This document shows, piece after piece, positions 21,730-35,005 of a DNA stretch of 35,063 nt; positions within the stretch are counted from its first letter, which is position 1; every line of letters starts with the position of its first letter. The notes under the pieces were generated by a model. That model was not told where the DNA came from. It searched no databases and worked only from the letters and a program-made list of their open reading frames with translations. This stretch comes from Myxococcales bacterium. Lineage in GTDB: Bacteria > Myxococcota_A > Polyangia > GCA-2747355. Where the stretch lies: NCBI GenBank assembly GCA_020431405.1, contig JAGQIK010000650.1, forward strand, positions 1 to 35,063, read 5' to 3'. The translations under genes and the position numbers were made by a program.

Positions 21730-21759
21730 TTGACCGAGCTGCCGCGTGCGCCGTAGCCT
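21730..21759 (+). promoter_or_regulatory. Candidate promoter of the alcohol/aldehyde dehydrogenase operon
   Basis: TTGACC (21730-21735) and TAGCCT (21754-21759) are separated by 18 bases. The predicted leader would contain a GCCGCGGA/TCCGCGGC hairpin at 21775-21797 before the ribosome site GAGGA of ATG 21821. This is pattern matching only. Confidence 0.3.
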
Positions 21760-21820
21760 CGCGCAAACTCCTTCGCCGCGGAGAAGTCTTCCGCGGCAGT
21801 TTCTCTTTCAGAGGACTTCA

Positions 21821-22960
21821 ATGCAGCGCGTGAGCTTTCGCTTTCCGACCGCGATCCGCTTCGGCTCTGGTGCCCGCGCCTCGCTCGCCGAGCTGCGCGA
21901 CGCCCACGGCGTCGAGCGCCCGCTCCTCGTCACCGACGCGGGGCTGACCAAGACGCCGGCCTACTCGTTGGTGCAGTCGACCATGGACGAGGTCTGGGAC
22001 GACGCCTGGCACGTGTTTTCGGGCGTGCACCCCAACCCGCTCGAAGGCGACGCCGACGCCGGCTACGCCGCCTACAAAGAGGGCGAGTGCGACGCCGTGA
22101 TCGGCCTCGGCGGCGGCAGCGCGCTCGACGGCGCCAAGGCCATCGTGCTGCGCATCGGCGCGCCCGAGGGCCCGCTCACCGACGTCGACACGAGCAAGCT
22201 GCCCGACGTGATCGTGCCGTTGTGCGCGATCCCCACCACCGCCGGCACCGGCAGCGAGACCGGCCGCAGCACCGTCTTCACCGCCGCATCGCACGGGCGC
22301 AAGGTCGTCATCGGCTGCCCGGCGCTGCTGCCGCAGCTGGCGATCCTCGACCCCGAGCTGACCGTCTCGCTGCCCGCGCACCTGACGGCGGCCACCGGCA
22401 TGGACGCCATGACGCACGCCATCGAGTCGTTCGTCTGCCCGGTGTTTCATCCGTTCTGCGACGGCGTCGCGCTCGAGGCGGTCTATCGCGTGCGGCGCTT
22501 CCTGCCGCGCGCCGTCGCCGACGGCAACGACATCGAGGCGCGCGGCGAGATGCTCGTCGCCGCCGCCATGGGCGCCACCGCGTTTCAGAAGGACCTCGGC
22601 GCGGCGCACTCGCTGGCGCACCCGCTGTCGAGCGAGCACGGCGCACACCACGGCCTGGCCAACGCCATCGTGCTGCCGCACGTGGTGCGCTTCAACGGCG
22701 AGGTCGACTCGATGCAGTACGCGCGCGTCGCCATCGCGCTCGGGCTGCAGGTTGACGAAGACCCCGCCGAGCTGGTGGCGAGCTTCCTCGAGCAGTTCAA
22801 CGCCTCGATCGGCATCACGCAGCGCCTGCGCGACATCGGCGTGCCCGAGGACGCGCTGCCCACGCTGGCCAAAAAAGCGCTGCTCGATCCCTGTCACGCG
22901 ACCAACCCGCGCCCCTGCAGCGAAGCCGACCTGCTGGCGCTCTACAAGAAGAGCTACTAG
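21821..22960 (+). CDS. Iron-containing alcohol dehydrogenase
   Basis: A 379-residue group III alcohol dehydrogenase. The NAD(P)-binding GGGSALDGAKA and the PTTAGTGSE motif are clear. Metal ligands are the Asp and His in GMDAMTHAIESF and the two histidines in the SLAHPLSSEHGAHHG segment. These enzymes interconvert primary alcohols and aldehydes. ATG 21821 is supported by GAGGA six bases upstream and by the conserved FRFPTAIRFGSG start. The stop is three bases from the aldehyde dehydrogenase start, so it is the first gene of the operon. Pairing with a glutamine-synthetase-like ligase suggests that its substrate may be a gamma-glutamylated amino alcohol. Confidence 0.94.
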   Translation: MQRVSFRFPTAIRFGSGARASLAELRDAHGVERPLLVTDAGLTKTPAYSLVQSTMDEVWDDAWHVFSGVHPNPLEGDADAGYAAYKEGECDAVIGLGGGSALDGAKAIVLRIGAPEGPLTDVDTSKLPDVIVPLCAIPTTAGTGSETGRSTVFTAASHGRKVVIGCPALLPQLAILDPELTVSLPAHLTAATGMDAMTHAIESFVCPVFHPFCDGVALEAVYRVRRFLPRAVADGNDIEARGEMLVAAAMGATAFQKDLGAAHSLAHPLSSEHGAHHGLANAIVLPHVVRFNGEVDSMQYARVAIALGLQVDEDPAELVASFLEQFNASIGITQRLRDIGVPEDALPTLAKKALLDPCHATNPRPCSEADLLALYKKSY

Positions 22961-22963
22961 GCC

Positions 22964-24406
22964 ATGAGCAACGTACAGCTTCCCGACGCCCTGTTGATCA
23001 ACGGCGAGCGCCGCGAGAGCGGCTCCGGCGGCACCATCGAGCTCGTCGACCCGGCCACCGAAACGCCGCTCTGCACGCTGCCTGCCGCCGGCCGGAAGGA
23101 AGTCGACGAAGCGCTCGGCGCCGCGCGCGCCGCCTTCGACGGCAGCGGCTGGGACAACATCAACCCGACCAAGCGGCGCGAGGCGCTCTTCGCGCTGGCA
23201 CGCCTGATCCGCGAGCACGCCGACGAGATCGCCGAGATCGAGGCGCGCAACGTCGGCAAGCCGATCGGCGACGCGCGCTGGGAGATCAACGCCGGCGCGC
23301 GCTGCTTCGAGTACTACGCCGGCGGCATCTCGCGCTTCGGCGGCGAGACGATCCCGGTCAGCTCCGACGGCTTCGACTTCACCGTGCGCGTGCCGGTGGG
23401 CGTCGTCGCCGCCATCGTGCCCTGGAACTTCCCGTTCCTGATGGCCTGCTGGAAGGTCGCGCCGGCGCTCGCCACGGGCAACGCCGTGCTGCTCAAGCCG
23501 GCGAGCCTCACGCCGCTCTCGGCGCTGCGCATGGGCGAGCTCGCCTGGGAGGCGGGAGTGCCGGAGGGCATCCTGCAGGTCATCGCCGGACCGGGCAGCC
23601 AGATCGGCGACTACCTTGTCAGCCACCGCGAGATCAACAAGATCGCCTTCACCGGCGAGACCGGCACCGGCGCGCGCATCCTCAAGCAGGCCGCCGACGA
23701 CATCAAGCGCGTCTCGCTGGAGCTGGGCGGCAAGAGCGCCAACGTCGTGTTCGCCGACGCCGACATCGAGGCCGCCGCCAGGCAGTCGCCCATGGGCGTG
23801 TTCGCCAACACGGGGCAGGACTGCTGCGCGCGCAGCCGCGTGCTGATCGAGCGCTCGGCCTACGACGACTTCCGCGACGCCTTCGTCGCGGCGACCAAGG
23901 AGATCGTCGTCGGCGAGCCGCTCGACGAGTCGACGATGATCGGCCCGATGGTCTCGCGCGGCCAGCGCGAGACGGTCGAGGGCTACATCAACTTGGCCAA
24001 GGACGAAGGCGCGCGCGTGCTGTGCGGCGCCGACCGACCGCGCGACAAGGGCTTCTACCTCTCGCCGACCGTCATCGATGGCGTCGGCAACGACGCGCGC
24101 GTCAACCAGGAGGAGATCTTCGGCCCGGTGGTCTCGCTTATCCCCTTCGACGACGAAGCCGAGGCGGTACGCCTCGCCAACGCCACGCCCTACGGCCTGA
24201 GCGGCTCGCTGTGGACCAAGGACGTCTCGCGCGCGCTCCGGCTCGCGCGCTCGCTGCGCTCGGGCGTGCTCGGCGTCAACACCGTCAGCAGCGTCTTTCA
24301 AGAGGCGCCCTTCGGCGGCTTCAAGCAGAGCGGCTTCGGACGCGACCTCGGCATGGAAGCGATGAAGCTCTACACCGAGCTGAAGAACGTCTTCATCAAG
24401 CTCTAA
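22964..24406 (+). CDS. Aldehyde dehydrogenase family protein
   Basis: A 480-residue NAD(P)-dependent aldehyde dehydrogenase. The conserved Asn is in VPWNFPF, the general base is E253 in LELGGKS, and the catalytic Cys287 is in NTGQDCCARSR; EEIFGPVV and PFGGFKQSG are also present. The length is normal and the overall pattern fits the betaine-aldehyde / gamma-glutamyl-aminobutyraldehyde (PuuC) / GabD-like clade, though the substrate is not fixed by sequence. It starts three bases after the alcohol dehydrogenase stop and is followed 43 bases later by the ligase gene. It would oxidise the aldehyde made by the first enzyme to an acid. Confidence 0.94.
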   Translation: MSNVQLPDALLINGERRESGSGGTIELVDPATETPLCTLPAAGRKEVDEALGAARAAFDGSGWDNINPTKRREALFALARLIREHADEIAEIEARNVGKPIGDARWEINAGARCFEYYAGGISRFGGETIPVSSDGFDFTVRVPVGVVAAIVPWNFPFLMACWKVAPALATGNAVLLKPASLTPLSALRMGELAWEAGVPEGILQVIAGPGSQIGDYLVSHREINKIAFTGETGTGARILKQAADDIKRVSLELGGKSANVVFADADIEAAARQSPMGVFANTGQDCCARSRVLIERSAYDDFRDAFVAATKEIVVGEPLDESTMIGPMVSRGQRETVEGYINLAKDEGARVLCGADRPRDKGFYLSPTVIDGVGNDARVNQEEIFGPVVSLIPFDDEAEAVRLANATPYGLSGSLWTKDVSRALRLARSLRSGVLGVNTVSSVFQEAPFGGFKQSGFGRDLGMEAMKLYTELKNVFIKL

Positions 24407-24449
24407 CTCACGCTCTGTCGCCGCCGCGGCGAAGAGAGGCCCGATCTCC

Positions 24450-25805
24450 ATGCAGCTCCCCGACTGGTTCTCCAAAACGCCGCCGCACGGAACGGCCCCC
24501 ATCGACACCGTGCTGGTCGCCTTCCCCGACGTCTACGGCCGCCTGATGGGCAAGCGGCTGACCTACGATCACTTCGTCGACGTCGTGCTCGATGGCGGCA
24601 CCCACGCCTGCAACTACCTGCTCACCGTCGACATCGAGATGCACCCGCAGCTCGGCTTCTCGCTGGCGAGCTGGGACAAGGGCTACGGCGACTTTCACAT
24701 GGTCGTCGACCTCGACACGCTGCGCCCGACTCCCTGGGCTCCAGGCAGCGCGCTGGTGCTGTGCGACCTCTATCACGAGGACCACACGCCGCTGGCGCAG
24801 GCGCCGCGCACCGTGCTCAAGCGCCAGCTCGAGCGGCTCGCCGCGCAGAACCTCAAGGCCAACATGGCCTCCGAGCTCGAGTTCTTCATGTTCGAGGAGG
24901 ACTACCGCGAAGCGCAGATGTCGAGCCACCGCGACCTGATGCCCAGCTCGGACTACCTCATCGACTATCACTTGCTGTCCACCGAGCGCGACGAGGACGT
25001 CATGCGGCGTCTGCGCGAGGAGATGGGCCAGGCCGGCGTGGTCATCGAGGGCAGCAAGGGCGAGTGGGGCAAGGGCCAGCACGAGCTCAACCTGCTCTAC
25101 GCCGAGGCGCTCGAGATGGCCGACCGCCACGTGGTGTTCAAGCACGGCACCAAGGTCATCGCACAGCAGCAGGGACGCTCGATCACGTTCATGGCCAAGT
25201 GGCGCACCGAAGACGCCGGCTCGAGCTGCCACATCCACAGCAGCCTGTGGGACACCGACGCCGACACGGCGGCCTTCGTCACCGGCGATCAGCCCAGCGA
25301 GCTGTTCTCGAAGTTCCTCGGCGGCCTGCTCGCGCACGGGCGCGAGCTCTCGTACTGCTTCGCGCCGACGGTCAACAGCTACAAGCGCTATCAATCCGAG
25401 TCGTGGGCGCCGACGGCAATGGCGTGGGCACACGACAACCGCACCACCGGCTTTCGCGTCGTCGGCAGCGGGAGCTCGCTGCGCATCGAAAACCGCATGC
25501 CCGGCGCCGACGTCAATCCGTATCTGGCCTACGCCGCGACCATCGCGGCAGGCCTACGCGGCGTCGAGGGCGGGCTCGATTGCGGCCCGGCCTACAAGGG
25601 CAACGCCTACGTCGACAAGTCACTCGAGCGGCTGCCCGACTCGCTCGCCGACGCGGCGCGCCTGCTCGACGGCAGCGAGCTCGCGCACGAAGCGTTCGGT
25701 GCCGAGGTGGTCGAGTTCTACGTGCACACGGCGAAGCTCGAGTCGGAGGCGGCGCGCCGCCAGGTCACCGACTGGGAGCGCGCGCGCTACTTCGAGAGGG
25801 TCTAG
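24450..25805 (+). CDS. Glutamine synthetase family protein, gamma-glutamyl-amine ligase type (PuuA/GlnA4-like)
   Basis: A 451-residue member of the GS-I-like ligase family. Metal and ATP site residues are kept: E142 and E144 in SELEFF, E212 in GQHELN, H261 and H263 in CHIHSSLW, then PTVNSYKRY and the SLRIENRMPGADVNPYLA block. The DGSS loop that helps bind ammonium in true glutamine synthetase is not found in the N-terminal domain, and the C-terminus (VTDWERARYFERV) is that of PuuA-type proteins. The likely reaction is glutamate + ATP + an amine giving a gamma-glutamyl amide. GAGAGG lies ten bases before ATG 24450. Neighbouring alcohol and aldehyde dehydrogenases point to an amino alcohol such as ethanolamine (inference). 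Confidence 0.88.
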   Translation: MQLPDWFSKTPPHGTAPIDTVLVAFPDVYGRLMGKRLTYDHFVDVVLDGGTHACNYLLTVDIEMHPQLGFSLASWDKGYGDFHMVVDLDTLRPTPWAPGSALVLCDLYHEDHTPLAQAPRTVLKRQLERLAAQNLKANMASELEFFMFEEDYREAQMSSHRDLMPSSDYLIDYHLLSTERDEDVMRRLREEMGQAGVVIEGSKGEWGKGQHELNLLYAEALEMADRHVVFKHGTKVIAQQQGRSITFMAKWRTEDAGSSCHIHSSLWDTDADTAAFVTGDQPSELFSKFLGGLLAHGRELSYCFAPTVNSYKRYQSESWAPTAMAWAHDNRTTGFRVVGSGSSLRIENRMPGADVNPYLAYAATIAAGLRGVEGGLDCGPAYKGNAYVDKSLERLPDSLADAARLLDGSELAHEAFGAEVVEFYVHTAKLESEAARRQVTDWERARYFERV

Positions 25806-25808
25806 AGC

Positions 25809-26474
25809 ATGGGTAGGATCGTGATCACGGGCGCCAACCGCGGCATCGGCCTGGCGATGGCGACGCAATTCGCGGCGCGCGGCGACGACGTCGTCGCTGG
25901 CTGTCGCGAGGCGTCGAGCGAGCTTCGCGCCGTCGACGGCGTGCGGGTCATCGAAGGCCTCGAGGTCAGCGACGGCGACGCGGTGGCAGCGTTCGCCAAG
26001 GAGGTCGGCGCAGGCCGCATCGACGTGCTGATCAACAACGCCGGCATCCTCACCGGCGAGACGCTCCAGGACATGAGCTTCGAGCGCATCCAGCGCCAGT
26101 TCGAGGTCAACAGCATGGGCCCGCTGCGCGTGACGCGCGCCCTGCTCGACCGCATCGGCGAGGGCAGCAAGGTCGCGCTGATCACCAGCCGCATGGGCTC
26201 CATCGCCGACAACACGTCGGGCAGCCGCTACGGCTATCGCATGTCCAAGGCGGCCCTCAACGCCGCCGGCGTCTCGCTGGCTCACGACCTCAGGCCGCGC
26301 GGCGCGGCGGTGGCGATCCTGCACCCTGGCTTCGTGCGCACGGGCATGACCGGCGGCATGGGCCAGGTCGACGCCGACGAGTCGGCGCGCGGGCTCATCG
26401 CGCGCATCGACGCGCTGACGCTCGAGACCAGCGGCACGTTCTGGCATGCGCAGGGCGAAGTGCTGCCTTGGTAG
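25809..26474 (+). CDS. Short-chain dehydrogenase/reductase (SDR)
   Basis: A 221-residue classical SDR. The cofactor motif TGANRGIG is at residues 7-14, NNAG follows the fourth strand, and a Ser in ITSRMGS precedes the catalytic Y143-x3-K147 (YRMSK). The HPGFVRTGMTG segment closes the substrate pocket. It resembles the C-factor / sniffer-like short SDRs. It starts three bases after the ligase stop and is the last gene of the four-gene operon; its role there is unclear, since the two oxidation steps are already covered. A run of five T follows the stop but without a stable stem before it. Confidence 0.9.
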   Translation: MGRIVITGANRGIGLAMATQFAARGDDVVAGCREASSELRAVDGVRVIEGLEVSDGDAVAAFAKEVGAGRIDVLINNAGILTGETLQDMSFERIQRQFEVNSMGPLRVTRALLDRIGEGSKVALITSRMGSIADNTSGSRYGYRMSKAALNAAGVSLAHDLRPRGAAVAILHPGFVRTGMTGGMGQVDADESARGLIARIDALTLETSGTFWHAQGEVLPW

Positions 26475-31601: not shown

Positions 31602-32042
31602 ATGTCGTATCGCAACCAGACAATTCGCCCGATCCCGCGTCCGTGCACCGTGTGCGAGGCTGACGAGACGAGCGCCTGTGCGCGCTGCGACCGTCCGCTC
31701 TGCGACGAGCATGCCCTCGCCGAGGGCGCCGTCTGCAGCACCTGCGCCGAGCACTCTCACGACACGCTCAGCTGGTTCGCCATCGTCGTGATGCCCCTGG
31801 TGCTCATCGGCGCGCTGGCCGGGCTCGCGATGGCTTACGCGCTGTGGCCTGACGTGACGGCCGGCTGGGAGATCGTATGGGCCGTCTTCGGCGCCGGCGT
31901 GCTCACCACCGGCGTGCGCCTGCTGCTCGGCAACGTGCTGCGCCGCCGCTTCAGCGGCAAGCGCCAGCCGCGCCGCTGGCCCACGCGCGCGCAGCTCGAC
32001 GCGTCATTCGCATCGGAAGGAGGCGGTCATGGCTCGTCGTGA
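31602..32042 (+). CDS. B-box-like zinc-binding membrane protein (copy A)
   Basis: A 146-residue protein. The N-terminus has a precise Cys/His array: C15, C18, C26, C29, C34, H37, C45, C48, spaced as in a cross-braced B-box-like finger holding two zinc ions. Two hydrophobic segments follow (about 55-80 and 85-108), then a basic Arg-rich C-terminus. The finger should face the cytoplasm. GAGGGA precedes ATG 31602. It overlaps the next gene by 14 bases and shares its exact Cys/His spacing with the gene at 32441, so these are duplicates. No function is known; the arrangement recalls membrane-tethered adaptor proteins. Confidence 0.8.
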   Translation: MSYRNQTIRPIPRPCTVCEADETSACARCDRPLCDEHALAEGAVCSTCAEHSHDTLSWFAIVVMPLVLIGALAGLAMAYALWPDVTAGWEIVWAVFGAGVLTTGVRLLLGNVLRRRFSGKRQPRRWPTRAQLDASFASEGGGHGSS

Positions 32043-32427
32043 AAGCTGTCCATACTGCGAGCGGCCCGGCTGTGAAGGCATCGCCAACGGACGGACGTGC
32101 GGCTTCGAAGTCTCGCCGCTCGCCCCGGTCGCCGACTTGTGCGACTGGCTCGACCAGCGGGCACGGGCCGCCGAGAAACACGCGGAGCACGAGCGCGGGC
32201 CCGATGAAGATGTTGTCCGCCCCGAGGGTCCGGCGCCCGCTGGCCTGCGCTGGCTGTCGCTGCTCGCGCTGCCGCTGTGTGTCGGCCTGTCGATGACGGC
32301 GGGCACAGCGCTTGGTTTCGAGCTGCCGCAGATCGCCGTCCCCAGCACCATGGTCGGCATCATCGTCGGCCTCGTCGTCGCGCACCGAGCGCCGCGCCTG
32401 CTGCAGCGCTGGTTCGACAAGCCCTAG
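32029..32427 (+). CDS. Small membrane protein with N-terminal Cys cluster
   Basis: A 132-residue protein between the two B-box-like copies. Its N-terminus has C7, C10, C15 and C24, a possible single zinc site, then an acidic linker (about residues 40-70, HAEHERGPDED) and two hydrophobic segments (about 73-95 and 102-120). The ribosome site AGGAGG lies within the end of the preceding gene, seven bases before ATG 32029, giving a 14-base overlap and strong translational coupling. It is not similar in sequence to its neighbours beyond its layout of Cys cluster followed by two membrane helices. No family is recognised. Confidence 0.78.
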   Translation: MARRESCPYCERPGCEGIANGRTCGFEVSPLAPVADLCDWLDQRARAAEKHAEHERGPDEDVVRPEGPAPAGLRWLSLLALPLCVGLSMTAGTALGFELPQIAVPSTMVGIIVGLVVAHRAPRLLQRWFDKP

Positions 32428-32440
32428 CAGAGGCTCACCG

Positions 32441-33190
32441 ATGCTGTATCGCGAGCAGACAATCCGCCCCATCCCCCGCCCCTGCACCGAGTGCAGCGCT
32501 GCGGAGTCGAGCAGCTGTCCGCGCTGCGACCGCCCGCTGTGTCACGACCACTCGCTCGCAGCTGGCACGGTCTGCACCGATTGCGTCAAGCGCTCCAACG
32601 ACCGGCTGGACTGGCTCGCCCTCGTCGGCACGCCGGTACTCGTGATCGTTGTCGTGCCGCTTATCGGCAGGGTGCTGCTCGAGACGACGCTGGGGCAAAG
32701 CTCGCGGGTCTTCGTCGTCGTCTGCGGCACCGTGCTGCTCGTCATCGGTGCGAGCCTGTTTCGAGCCTACCGAAGATCGCGCCTCGCCGACGGTCGGCGT
32801 CGCGCCCGTCGCTGGCCCGCGACAGCGCCCGCCGAGCACGCGTCGCTATCTGCTACGCCTGGTCGAGCAGCGCGATCTGCTCGTACAGATCGGCGACCTG
32901 ACCCTCCCAGTAGCGGTCCGTCCCCCACTGCGGAAAGGCGCGCGGGAAGGATGGGTCATCCCATCGCTCTGCGATCCACGCCGCGTAGCGCACGTACCTT
33001 AAGCCGCGCAGAAGCTCGATCAGCCGCAGGGTGGGATGCGCCAGCGGACGAAAGAGCTCGTAGCCGGCAAGCATCGAGTCGAGCTCGCGCGGGCAGTCGG
33101 CAGGTCGCGCGGGGAGCAGCAGCCACATGTCCTGCACCGCCGGCCCAACGCCGCAGTCGTCGAAGTCGAGGAAGTAGAACTGGTCGGTGA
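32441..33190 (+). CDS. B-box-like zinc-binding membrane protein (copy C) with aberrant read-through tail
   Basis: A paralogue of the gene at 31602. The first 48 residues carry the identical array C15, C18, C26, C29, C34, H37, C45, C48, and the YRxQTIRPIPRPC start is conserved. Two hydrophobic segments follow at about 62-82 and 87-106. Similarity ends near residue 135 (the RRWP motif, base 32819). The frame then stays open for some 110 more residues, which are Arg/Ser/Ala/Pro-rich and lie antisense to the 3' end of srkA (overlap 32853-33190). The tail looks like chance frame rather than selected protein. The original stop was probably lost in a deletion. Confidence 0.7.
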   Translation: MLYREQTIRPIPRPCTECSAAESSSCPRCDRPLCHDHSLAAGTVCTDCVKRSNDRLDWLALVGTPVLVIVVVPLIGRVLLETTLGQSSRVFVVVCGTVLLVIGASLFRAYRRSRLADGRRRARRWPATAPAEHASLSATPGRAARSARTDRRPDPPSSGPSPTAERRAGRMGHPIALRSTPRSARTLSRAEARSAAGWDAPADERARSRQASSRARAGSRQVARGAAATCPAPPAQRRSRRSRGSRTGR

Positions 33191-33872
33191 TCTGGCCGGC
33201 GCCGGCGGCGCGTCCGCGCAGCAGGTTGGCGCGATGGCAGTCGCCGTGCAGCGCGAAGGTCTCGACGCCCTGATAGAGCCGTTCGCCGATCCCGACGAGC
33301 CGCTTGACCGCGTCCTCGTAGCGCGCCTGCACGCCGGGCGACATGCCGCCGCGCGCGAGGATCTTCTCGAGGCACGCGGTGCCGTAGGTCTCGGGCGCGA
33401 TGCGCGGGCGATGCGCCAGCGAGAGCGACGCCGCGACGTTGTGGATGCGGCCCAGCAGCCGACCGAGCTGCTCGAACTCGTCGCCCGTCAGCTCGTCGGG
33501 ACAGCGCCCGCCCGTGCGCGGAAAGACCGCGAAGAAGATGCCGTCGTCGGTGGCGTGCAGCGTCTCGCCGTCCTCGAACGGCGTCGGCGCGCAGACGGGA
33601 ATCTCGGCCTCGCGCAGCGCGGCCAACAGGCGATGCTCGTCGCCGATGGCGTCGGCGCTCCAGCGCCCCGGCCGGTAGAACTTGCAGACCACGCGCGTGC
33701 GATCGTCGAGCTCCACCTCGTAGACGCGGTTTTCGAGGCTGTTGAGCGCGTAGCAGAGGCCCGTGGTGTAGTGGCCCGAGCGCTCGACGGCCGCCAGCAC
33801 GCGCTCGGGGGTGAGGCTGAAGAAGCTGCCCGCGCGTTCGTCGCGCGCCACCGCTGCGGTATCGGCGTTCAT
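32853..33872 (-). CDS. srkA: Stress response serine/threonine protein kinase SrkA (YihE family)
   Basis: A 339-residue cytoplasmic kinase of the APH-like fold. The SrkA signature is clear: FFSLTPERVLAAVERSG, LNSLENRVYEVEL, VVCKFYRPGRWS with the ATP-binding Lys, EIPVCAPTPF, GGRCPDEL, then the catalytic HGDCHRANLL and the metal-binding LDFDDCGVGP. In E. coli SrkA protects cells under stress and opposes MazEF-mediated death. ATG 33872 (MNADTA) is used; ATG 33902 would add ten residues. Its last 338 bases are overlapped on the other strand by the read-through tail of the zinc-finger gene. It diverges from the Ig-like MYXO-CTERM gene. Confidence 0.94.
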   Translation of the reverse strand: MNADTAAVARDERAGSFFSLTPERVLAAVERSGHYTTGLCYALNSLENRVYEVELDDRTRVVCKFYRPGRWSADAIGDEHRLLAALREAEIPVCAPTPFEDGETLHATDDGIFFAVFPRTGGRCPDELTGDEFEQLGRLLGRIHNVAASLSLAHRPRIAPETYGTACLEKILARGGMSPGVQARYEDAVKRLVGIGERLYQGVETFALHGDCHRANLLRGRAAGAGQITDQFYFLDFDDCGVGPAVQDMWLLLPARPADCPRELDSMLAGYELFRPLAHPTLRLIELLRGLRYVRYAAWIAERWDDPSFPRAFPQWGTDRYWEGQVADLYEQIALLDQA

Positions 33873-34021: not shown

Positions 34022-35005
34022 ATGCGTTTTTCAAAGCTGCCGACACTATTCTCCTTTTCCTGCCTGCTGCTGCTCGCCGGCGCCTCCAGCGCCCGCGCAC
34101 AGAAGAGCTTCGACGAGCCCTGCTCGACGCACAGCGAGTGCTCCTCGCAGATCTGCGCCATCGGCCAAGCCGGCGGCGCCGCCTACTGCAGCAAGAACTG
34201 CAGCACCGACGCCGAGTGCAGCGGCGGCAAGTGCAGCAGCAGCTCGGTGGGCCAGATCTGCCGCAAGAACGACACGGGCACCAACCCGGGCACAGGCAGC
34301 GGAAGCGGAACCAACCCCAACCCCAACGACAAGATCCCACCCACCGTCGCGATCTCGTCGCCCGCCGCGCTCGCCGTGGTCCCGCTGCAGACCAAGGTCG
34401 TCGTCGCCGCCACCGACGACAGCGGCATCACGCAGGTCGAGCTCAAGGTCGACGATCAGGTGGTGGGCACCAAGAACGCGGCGCCCTACGAGTTCGACAT
34501 CACGCTCACCGCCGGACAGCACCTCATCACCGCCGAGGCCACCGACGGCGCCAACAACAAGGGCGGCGCTTCCGTCGCGGTCACCGCCGACGCCAACGCC
34601 AACCCGACCAACCCGACCAACCCGACCAACCCCACCAACCCGACTAATCCGACCAACCCGACCAACCCCACCAACCCCACCAACCCCACGACGCCGCCCG
34701 CGTCGCCCGGCATGTTCGGCGCCAGCTGCAACGGGCCGCAGGACTGCATCAACGCGATGTGCGCCGATGACCCCGCGGTCGGCCGCAAGTACTGCACCGA
34801 GAGCTGCGTCTCCGGTCAGAACACCTGCCCTGGCGGCAGCAGCTGCATCGGCGGCCCCGGCGGCGGCCTCTGCGCACTGCCGGCTGGCGGCAGCGCCGAG
34901 CAGCAGGCCGGCGGCTGCGGCGTCGCCAGCGCTGCCAACGGGAGCTTCGCCGCCATCGCGCTGCTGCTGCTCGGCCTCGCGCTCTTCAGCCGCCGCCGCC
35001 GCTAG
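34022..35005 (+). CDS. Ig-like domain, Cys-rich surface protein with Asn-Pro-Thr repeat linker and MYXO-CTERM tail
   Basis: A 327-residue exported protein. A signal peptide (residues 1 to about 26, ending ARA) leads to a Cys-rich segment (about 35-85), a Thr/Gly/Asn linker, an Ig-like beta domain at about 102-192 (PPTVAISSPAALAVVPLQTKV, then YEFDITLTAGQHLITAEATD), ten Asn-Pro-Thr repeats (194-223) and a second Cys-rich segment (about 232-290). The C-terminus is a MYXO-CTERM signal: GGC299G, a hydrophobic helix, then RRRR. It should be sorted to the cell surface via Cys299. The repeat linker is probably an extended stalk. No clear ribosome site precedes ATG 34022. Confidence 0.88.
   Translation: MRFSKLPTLFSFSCLLLLAGASSARAQKSFDEPCSTHSECSSQICAIGQAGGAAYCSKNCSTDAECSGGKCSSSSVGQICRKNDTGTNPGTGSGSGTNPNPNDKIPPTVAISSPAALAVVPLQTKVVVAATDDSGITQVELKVDDQVVGTKNAAPYEFDITLTAGQHLITAEATDGANNKGGASVAVTADANANPTNPTNPTNPTNPTNPTNPTNPTNPTNPTTPPASPGMFGASCNGPQDCINAMCADDPAVGRKYCTESCVSGQNTCPGGSSCIGGPGGGLCALPAGGSAEQQAGGCGVASAANGSFAAIALLLLGLALFSRRRR
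34601..34690 (+). repeat. Ten tandem 9-bp units encoding Asn-Pro-Thr
   Basis: Units of the form AAYCCSACN run without interruption from 34601 to 34690, all in frame, with silent third-base changes only. This is a coding minisatellite inside the Ig-like protein gene, likely to vary in copy number between strains. Confidence 0.9.

Follow-up and report, generated by a model that had tools for sequence, protein, structure and literature searches.

Described B-box-like fingers and HDOD proteins

B-boxes in prokaryotic membrane proteins have already been reported (PMC4506424, with reference to Burroughs, Iyer and Aravind, 2011), and the bacterial proteins of this kind closest to the locus studied here are those recognized by the Pfam model zf-B_box (PF00643) in the class Polyangia. 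Of 193 genomes examined from this class, 27 have proteins that pass the model's cut-off, and membrane B-boxes are therefore not unusual in the class; the initial annotation of this DNA had considered eukaryotic-type fingers on membrane anchors to be unusual in bacteria, a view that is not upheld by these counts or by the earlier report, given that the Pfam-positive proteins are often small membrane proteins. The 12 that we read begin with CxxHP...C..C....C..C, continue to a last Cys pair and in several cases are, as judged by eye, short with one or two hydrophobic stretches. Other relevant fingers are the ANCHR-like B-box (PF22586) and the HIT (PF04438) and AN1 (PF01428) domains, the latter two being cross-brace treble clefs with a CxxC ... 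CxxC-x4-C spacing similar to the one described below.

HDOD proteins are the second described group that touches the locus. They take part in signaling elsewhere, as in SadB, an HDOD protein that binds c-di-GMP (PMC6543031), though the mechanism of HDOD signaling proteins is not established (PMC6543031).

Organization of the A-C-B locus

The window, by which we mean the whole contig of 35,063 bases, comes from the genome of an uncultured Myxococcales bacterium (11.2 Mb in 733 contigs) and contains three co-directional genes, here called A, C and B. Gene A (31602..32042, +) encodes a small membrane protein of 146 aa with a B-box-like finger and a two-helix hairpin. Its finger occupies residues 15-48 (31644..31745, +) in the arrangement C-x2-C-x7-C-x2-C-x4-C-x2-H-x7-C-x2-C, and its membrane hairpin (31773..31931, +) consists of two hydrophobic helices, at residues ~58-79 and ~90-110; a tail rich in Arg and Lys comes next. 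Gene C (32029..32427, +) encodes an orphan small membrane protein of 132 aa with an N-terminal CPYC-x4-C-x8-C and two hydrophobic helices. Gene B, in its supported part (32441..32850, +), encodes a sister of A whose ligands occupy the same positions and which likewise has a hairpin; its finger again spans residues 15-48 (32483..32584, +). Each of the three proteins has two segments whose Kyte-Doolittle hydrophobicity exceeds 1.4. The initial annotation had described duplicates with identically spaced Cys/His arrays flanking a third small protein with a Cys cluster and two membrane helices, all overlapping or nearly so, and this description holds: 14 bases are common to A and C, and 13 bases separate C from B. 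A purine-rich stretch resembling a ribosome-binding site precedes the start of each gene, and with this spacing A, C and B are therefore probably co-translated. No RNA elements were found at gathering thresholds and no promoter in a promoter scan; the sole terminator-like site, no better than expected by chance, is on the opposite strand.

On its 5' side the cluster is preceded by a PAS/histidine kinase gene and a gene with weak resemblance to lipocalins, and on its 3' side it meets a convergent gene outside the cluster (32853..33872, -) for an SrkA/YihE-type serine/threonine kinase, which scores 351 bits with NF008738 (cut-off 194) and matches Pfam APH. The open reading frame of B continues to 33190 and thus overlaps the last 338 bases of the kinase gene on the opposite strand. 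In this 3' tail (32853..33190, +) the GC content of the three codon positions is 0.86/0.43/0.71, the exact reverse of the 0.71/0.43/0.86 of the kinase gene and unlike the ~0.67-0.74/0.53-0.58/0.83-0.87 of A, C and the body of B. Because the tail has the codon composition of the kinase read backwards, the true end of B is uncertain; B is secure to about 32850, and the tail beyond it is doubtful. A longer B, a frameshift or a lost stop are alternatives for this 3' end, which is represented by one assembly.

Elsewhere in the window, two long tandem paralogues lie at the contig edge (29-3357, +) and have the stretch ADPCGMVPPVV... in common, the first of them having no NCBIfam match. Genes resembling alcohol dehydrogenase, aldehyde dehydrogenase, glutamine synthetase and SDR enzymes follow each other in a row (21746-26474, +), the glutamine synthetase-like gene scoring below every NCBIfam equivalog cut-off. 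A secreted protein rich in Cys, in which TNP is repeated about ten times (34022-35005, +), carries a MYXO-CTERM sorting signal at 20.1 bits (cut-off 20).

A and B share 43% identity across 127 aa (BLASTP, E 2e-30), with the ligands C15, C18, C26, C29, C34, H37, C45 and C48 at the same positions in both. Their fingers (first 55 residues) are 64% identical with a dN/dS of ~0.40, whereas their membrane parts are 27% identical with a dN/dS of ~0.94, and so the finger is constrained and the membrane part much less so. The two are sisters in the family tree (support 99/97) and local tandem duplicates. The AF2 model of A is of moderate confidence (pLDDT 71 for the whole protein and 66 for the finger) and predicts a finger followed by two long helices. 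Searches of the PDB and a structure library with this model gave no significant match, the weak and nonsignificant top matches including LIM, TRIM28 B-box and piggyBac cross-brace fingers.

The Cys residues of C (C7, C10, C15 and C24) are spaced like those in the second half of the finger, and only 5 of ~1,930 shuffles score higher than C against the family profile, a suggestive but weak indication that C may be a decayed half-finger paralogue. The gene shows codon periodicity. No convincing relative of C was found among 318 genomes of the class, the one weak match (2.8e-4) being limited to the middle and membrane part and interrupted by a stop. With C lacking convincing relatives and A and B being local sisters, a conserved A-C-B cassette was ruled out.

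The finger family and its HDOD fusions

A profile search with the array, as suggested in the initial annotation, used a profile built from A, B and three relatives and found matches in at least 51 of 318 class genomes, including at least 31 of 179 of good quality; a broader profile matched at least 26 of 379 genomes across the phylum, with 6 of these, all weak, outside the class. These counts are lower bounds because only part of the first-look candidates were scored. The source genome has seven family matches. Scanning public genome contigs with A revealed no close relative, and peptide patterns gave no relative in viral contigs, on which basis a viral origin of A was rejected. Seven positions (C18, C26, R28, C29, C34, C45 and C48) are invariant in 25 diverse members, and three more, namely, C15, H37 and a Phe in the tail, are almost so; given these seven columns and the spread over at least 51 of 318 genomes, the array is far from chance. 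The majority of members are free-standing proteins, many of which have M-x-YR or a similar start and the ending R..FL.E.

No family member exceeds a finger cut-off in Pfam or NCBIfam, and the family is unnamed in the libraries searched. Against PF00643, A scores 9.9 bits (E 1.1; cut-off 24.1) and B has no listed match. Both proteins nevertheless have the B-box spacing with eight ligands, in register with the Pfam-positive proteins up to the last pair, which lies at a different distance, and like the bacterial PF00643 proteins of the Polyangia they are small, with a finger followed by hydrophobic helices. The spacing common to both groups is C-x2-[H/C]-x7-C-x2-C-x4-C-x2-[C/H]-...-C-x2-C. The ligand types differ: in the PF00643 proteins that were read, His is ligand 2 (CxxHP) and the third pair is CxxC, whereas in the A/B family His is ligand 6 (CxxH). 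The invariant Arg in CxRC and the conserved R..FL.E tail also set the A/B family apart from them.

Profile-to-profile comparison (hhalign) of the family with the class's Pfam-positive B-box proteins gave a probability of 89% (E 2e-6), compared to 1.4% for reversed sequences and a mean of 3.6% for 60 shuffles that kept the ligand columns (maximum 55%, reached once). In this alignment the Cys residues of the second half are in register and H37 faces a Cys of the Pfam-positive proteins. The contrast with the controls indicates that the family is B-box-like by descent, with the His shifted from ligand 2 to ligand 6, and agrees with the initial description of the fingers as B-box-like and membrane-anchored. 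Weak matches of the finger to other models are mostly to cross-brace types, namely, ANCHR-like B-box, HIT, B-box and AN1. The ANCHR-like B-box matches the first half of the finger weakly, in 8 of 25 members at E <= 1 and with 14 bits against a cut-off of 27, and the A/B family has neither its FYVE domain nor its eukaryotic context. HIT and AN1 have weak matches in 7 and 3 of the 25 members, respectively, but A itself is unmatched, and the A/B family differs from them in its last ligand pair (CxxC) and in being bacterial and membrane-anchored.

Tandem copies recur in the family. One genome (G028) has a pair of sisters (100/99), and another (G090) has six free-standing finger-hairpin genes in tandem between prfB-like and aminopeptidase N-like genes (L054 9341-13670; G090:C11, ~299,300-303,700), five of which form one clade (99/96). 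Tandem duplication has thus occurred independently in at least three lineages. The deep branches of the tree are poorly supported. A further member has two fingers in a row, and a protein in another genome (L093 1195-2028; G312) combines a B-box-like finger and two hydrophobic helices with a second, RING-like Cys/His-rich stretch at its C terminus. Half-finger members occur in G081 (L107, L112 and L114) and G058 (L108) as proteins of ~105 aa in which only one CxxC ... CxxCE set of two pairs is present; they also have a hairpin and a conserved tail of the type FLATSLPRAYLPG, and are predicted to be a single-zinc-site version of the family.

In ~16 of 70 distinct matches the finger and hairpin are fused C-terminally to an HDOD domain. 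One fusion is encoded in the source genome, with HDOD N-terminal to the finger and membrane hairpin (L051 4285-5556, contig C58), and both fusions tested, this genome's among them, match Pfam HDOD (PF08668) at E ~1e-41. Further HDOD-finger loci are L010, L034, L035, L039, L041, L042, L045-L047, L049 and L050, together with L086, L088, L089, L092 and L095. One family of the class (f12) has such fusions commonly, and their finger has no Pfam name. HDOD proteins of the source genome and of many Polyangia thus carry the same C-terminal finger-plus-hairpin as A and B, whereas HDOD is absent from A, B and C themselves.

Neighboring genes were compared across genomes as a rough screen, in which many clusters are antisense ORFs. 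No conserved partner gene emerged, and none of the enzymes whose co-conservation the initial annotation had advised looking for (nucleases, ligases or proteases) recurs beside the family across lineages. The recurrent neighbors are Ser/Thr kinase, DUF507, AMP-binding and enoyl-CoA hydratase-like genes; because they occur mainly in one Kofleriaceae-type group, they reflect plain synteny and were ruled out as conserved partners. An anti-phage defense system was also rejected, with no PADLOC match for A, B, C or their neighbors at E <= 0.01. A-C-B is not conserved as a set and is not a new system. Of the undescribed system first suspected here, what stands is the subfamily and its HDOD fusion, both undescribed in the libraries searched.

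Predicted membrane docking and rival explanations

We propose, with somewhat more confidence than doubt, that A and B are B-box-like cross-brace fingers of the Polyangia that present a cytosolic protein-docking site on a membrane hairpin, and that these tandem-duplicated proteins probably serve as adaptors. The finger would fold around two zinc ions and, by analogy with other fingers of this type, may expose a surface on which a partner protein or peptide docks. The helical hairpin would fix the finger to the cytoplasmic membrane, on its inner face. Given that HDOD is cytosolic and that a basic tail follows the second helix, both ends of the hairpin are predicted to be cytoplasmic, and the hairpin could pair with others of its kind. 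A and B would then be free-standing forms of the module by which HDOD proteins are anchored. Since the three genes are probably co-translated and all carry hairpins, it is plausible that A, C and B assemble into a hetero-oligomeric membrane adaptor.

Other explanations address the partner, the chemistry or the very existence of such a function. A role in proteolysis has been proposed for B-box and AN1 domains elsewhere in prokaryotes (PMC4506424, citing Burroughs et al.), and the fingers might likewise present substrates to, or stabilize, a membrane peptidase, as the aminopeptidase N-like gene adjoining the six-copy array of G090 could suggest. That gene, however, is a single case on the opposite strand, and no peptidase lies beside A-C-B or among the neighbors recurring across lineages, and we consider the proposal unlikely. 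The eight thiol/imidazole ligands, which would face the cytosol, and the direct fusion to a signaling domain in relatives would also be compatible with a zinc- or redox-responsive switch, in which a finger opened by zinc loss or by oxidation of its thiols alters a partner, for example HDOD; yet the ligands look structural and no zinc-regulated or redox genes recur nearby, which leaves this quite unlikely.

It is also conceivable that the locus holds paralogues that multiplied locally, drift fast and have little function themselves, with C as a decaying copy minus half a finger. The orphan status of C, its Cys spacing and shuffle result, the half-finger members of G058 and G081 and the free drift of the A and B membrane parts are what such paralogues might show, but the constraint on the finger between A and B, the ribosome-binding-site-like stretch ahead of each gene and the codon periodicity of C speak against them, and we regard drift as decidedly unlikely. 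Just as improbable, in our estimate, is an extension of the docking proposal to a Polyangia-wide membrane signaling module, in which HDOD and free-standing finger-hairpin proteins would share one anchoring or docking module and mix through their hairpins, with local sets such as A-C-B tuning which partners are recruited.

Our preferred reading of A and B remains that of membrane-docking adaptors. The invariant ligand pattern and tail motif define a family unnamed in Pfam and NCBIfam and widen the range of bacterial B-box-like fingers. The family also ties the finger-hairpin module to HDOD signaling proteins, and would supply work on HDOD proteins in myxobacteria with a concrete hypothesis for their anchoring at the membrane.
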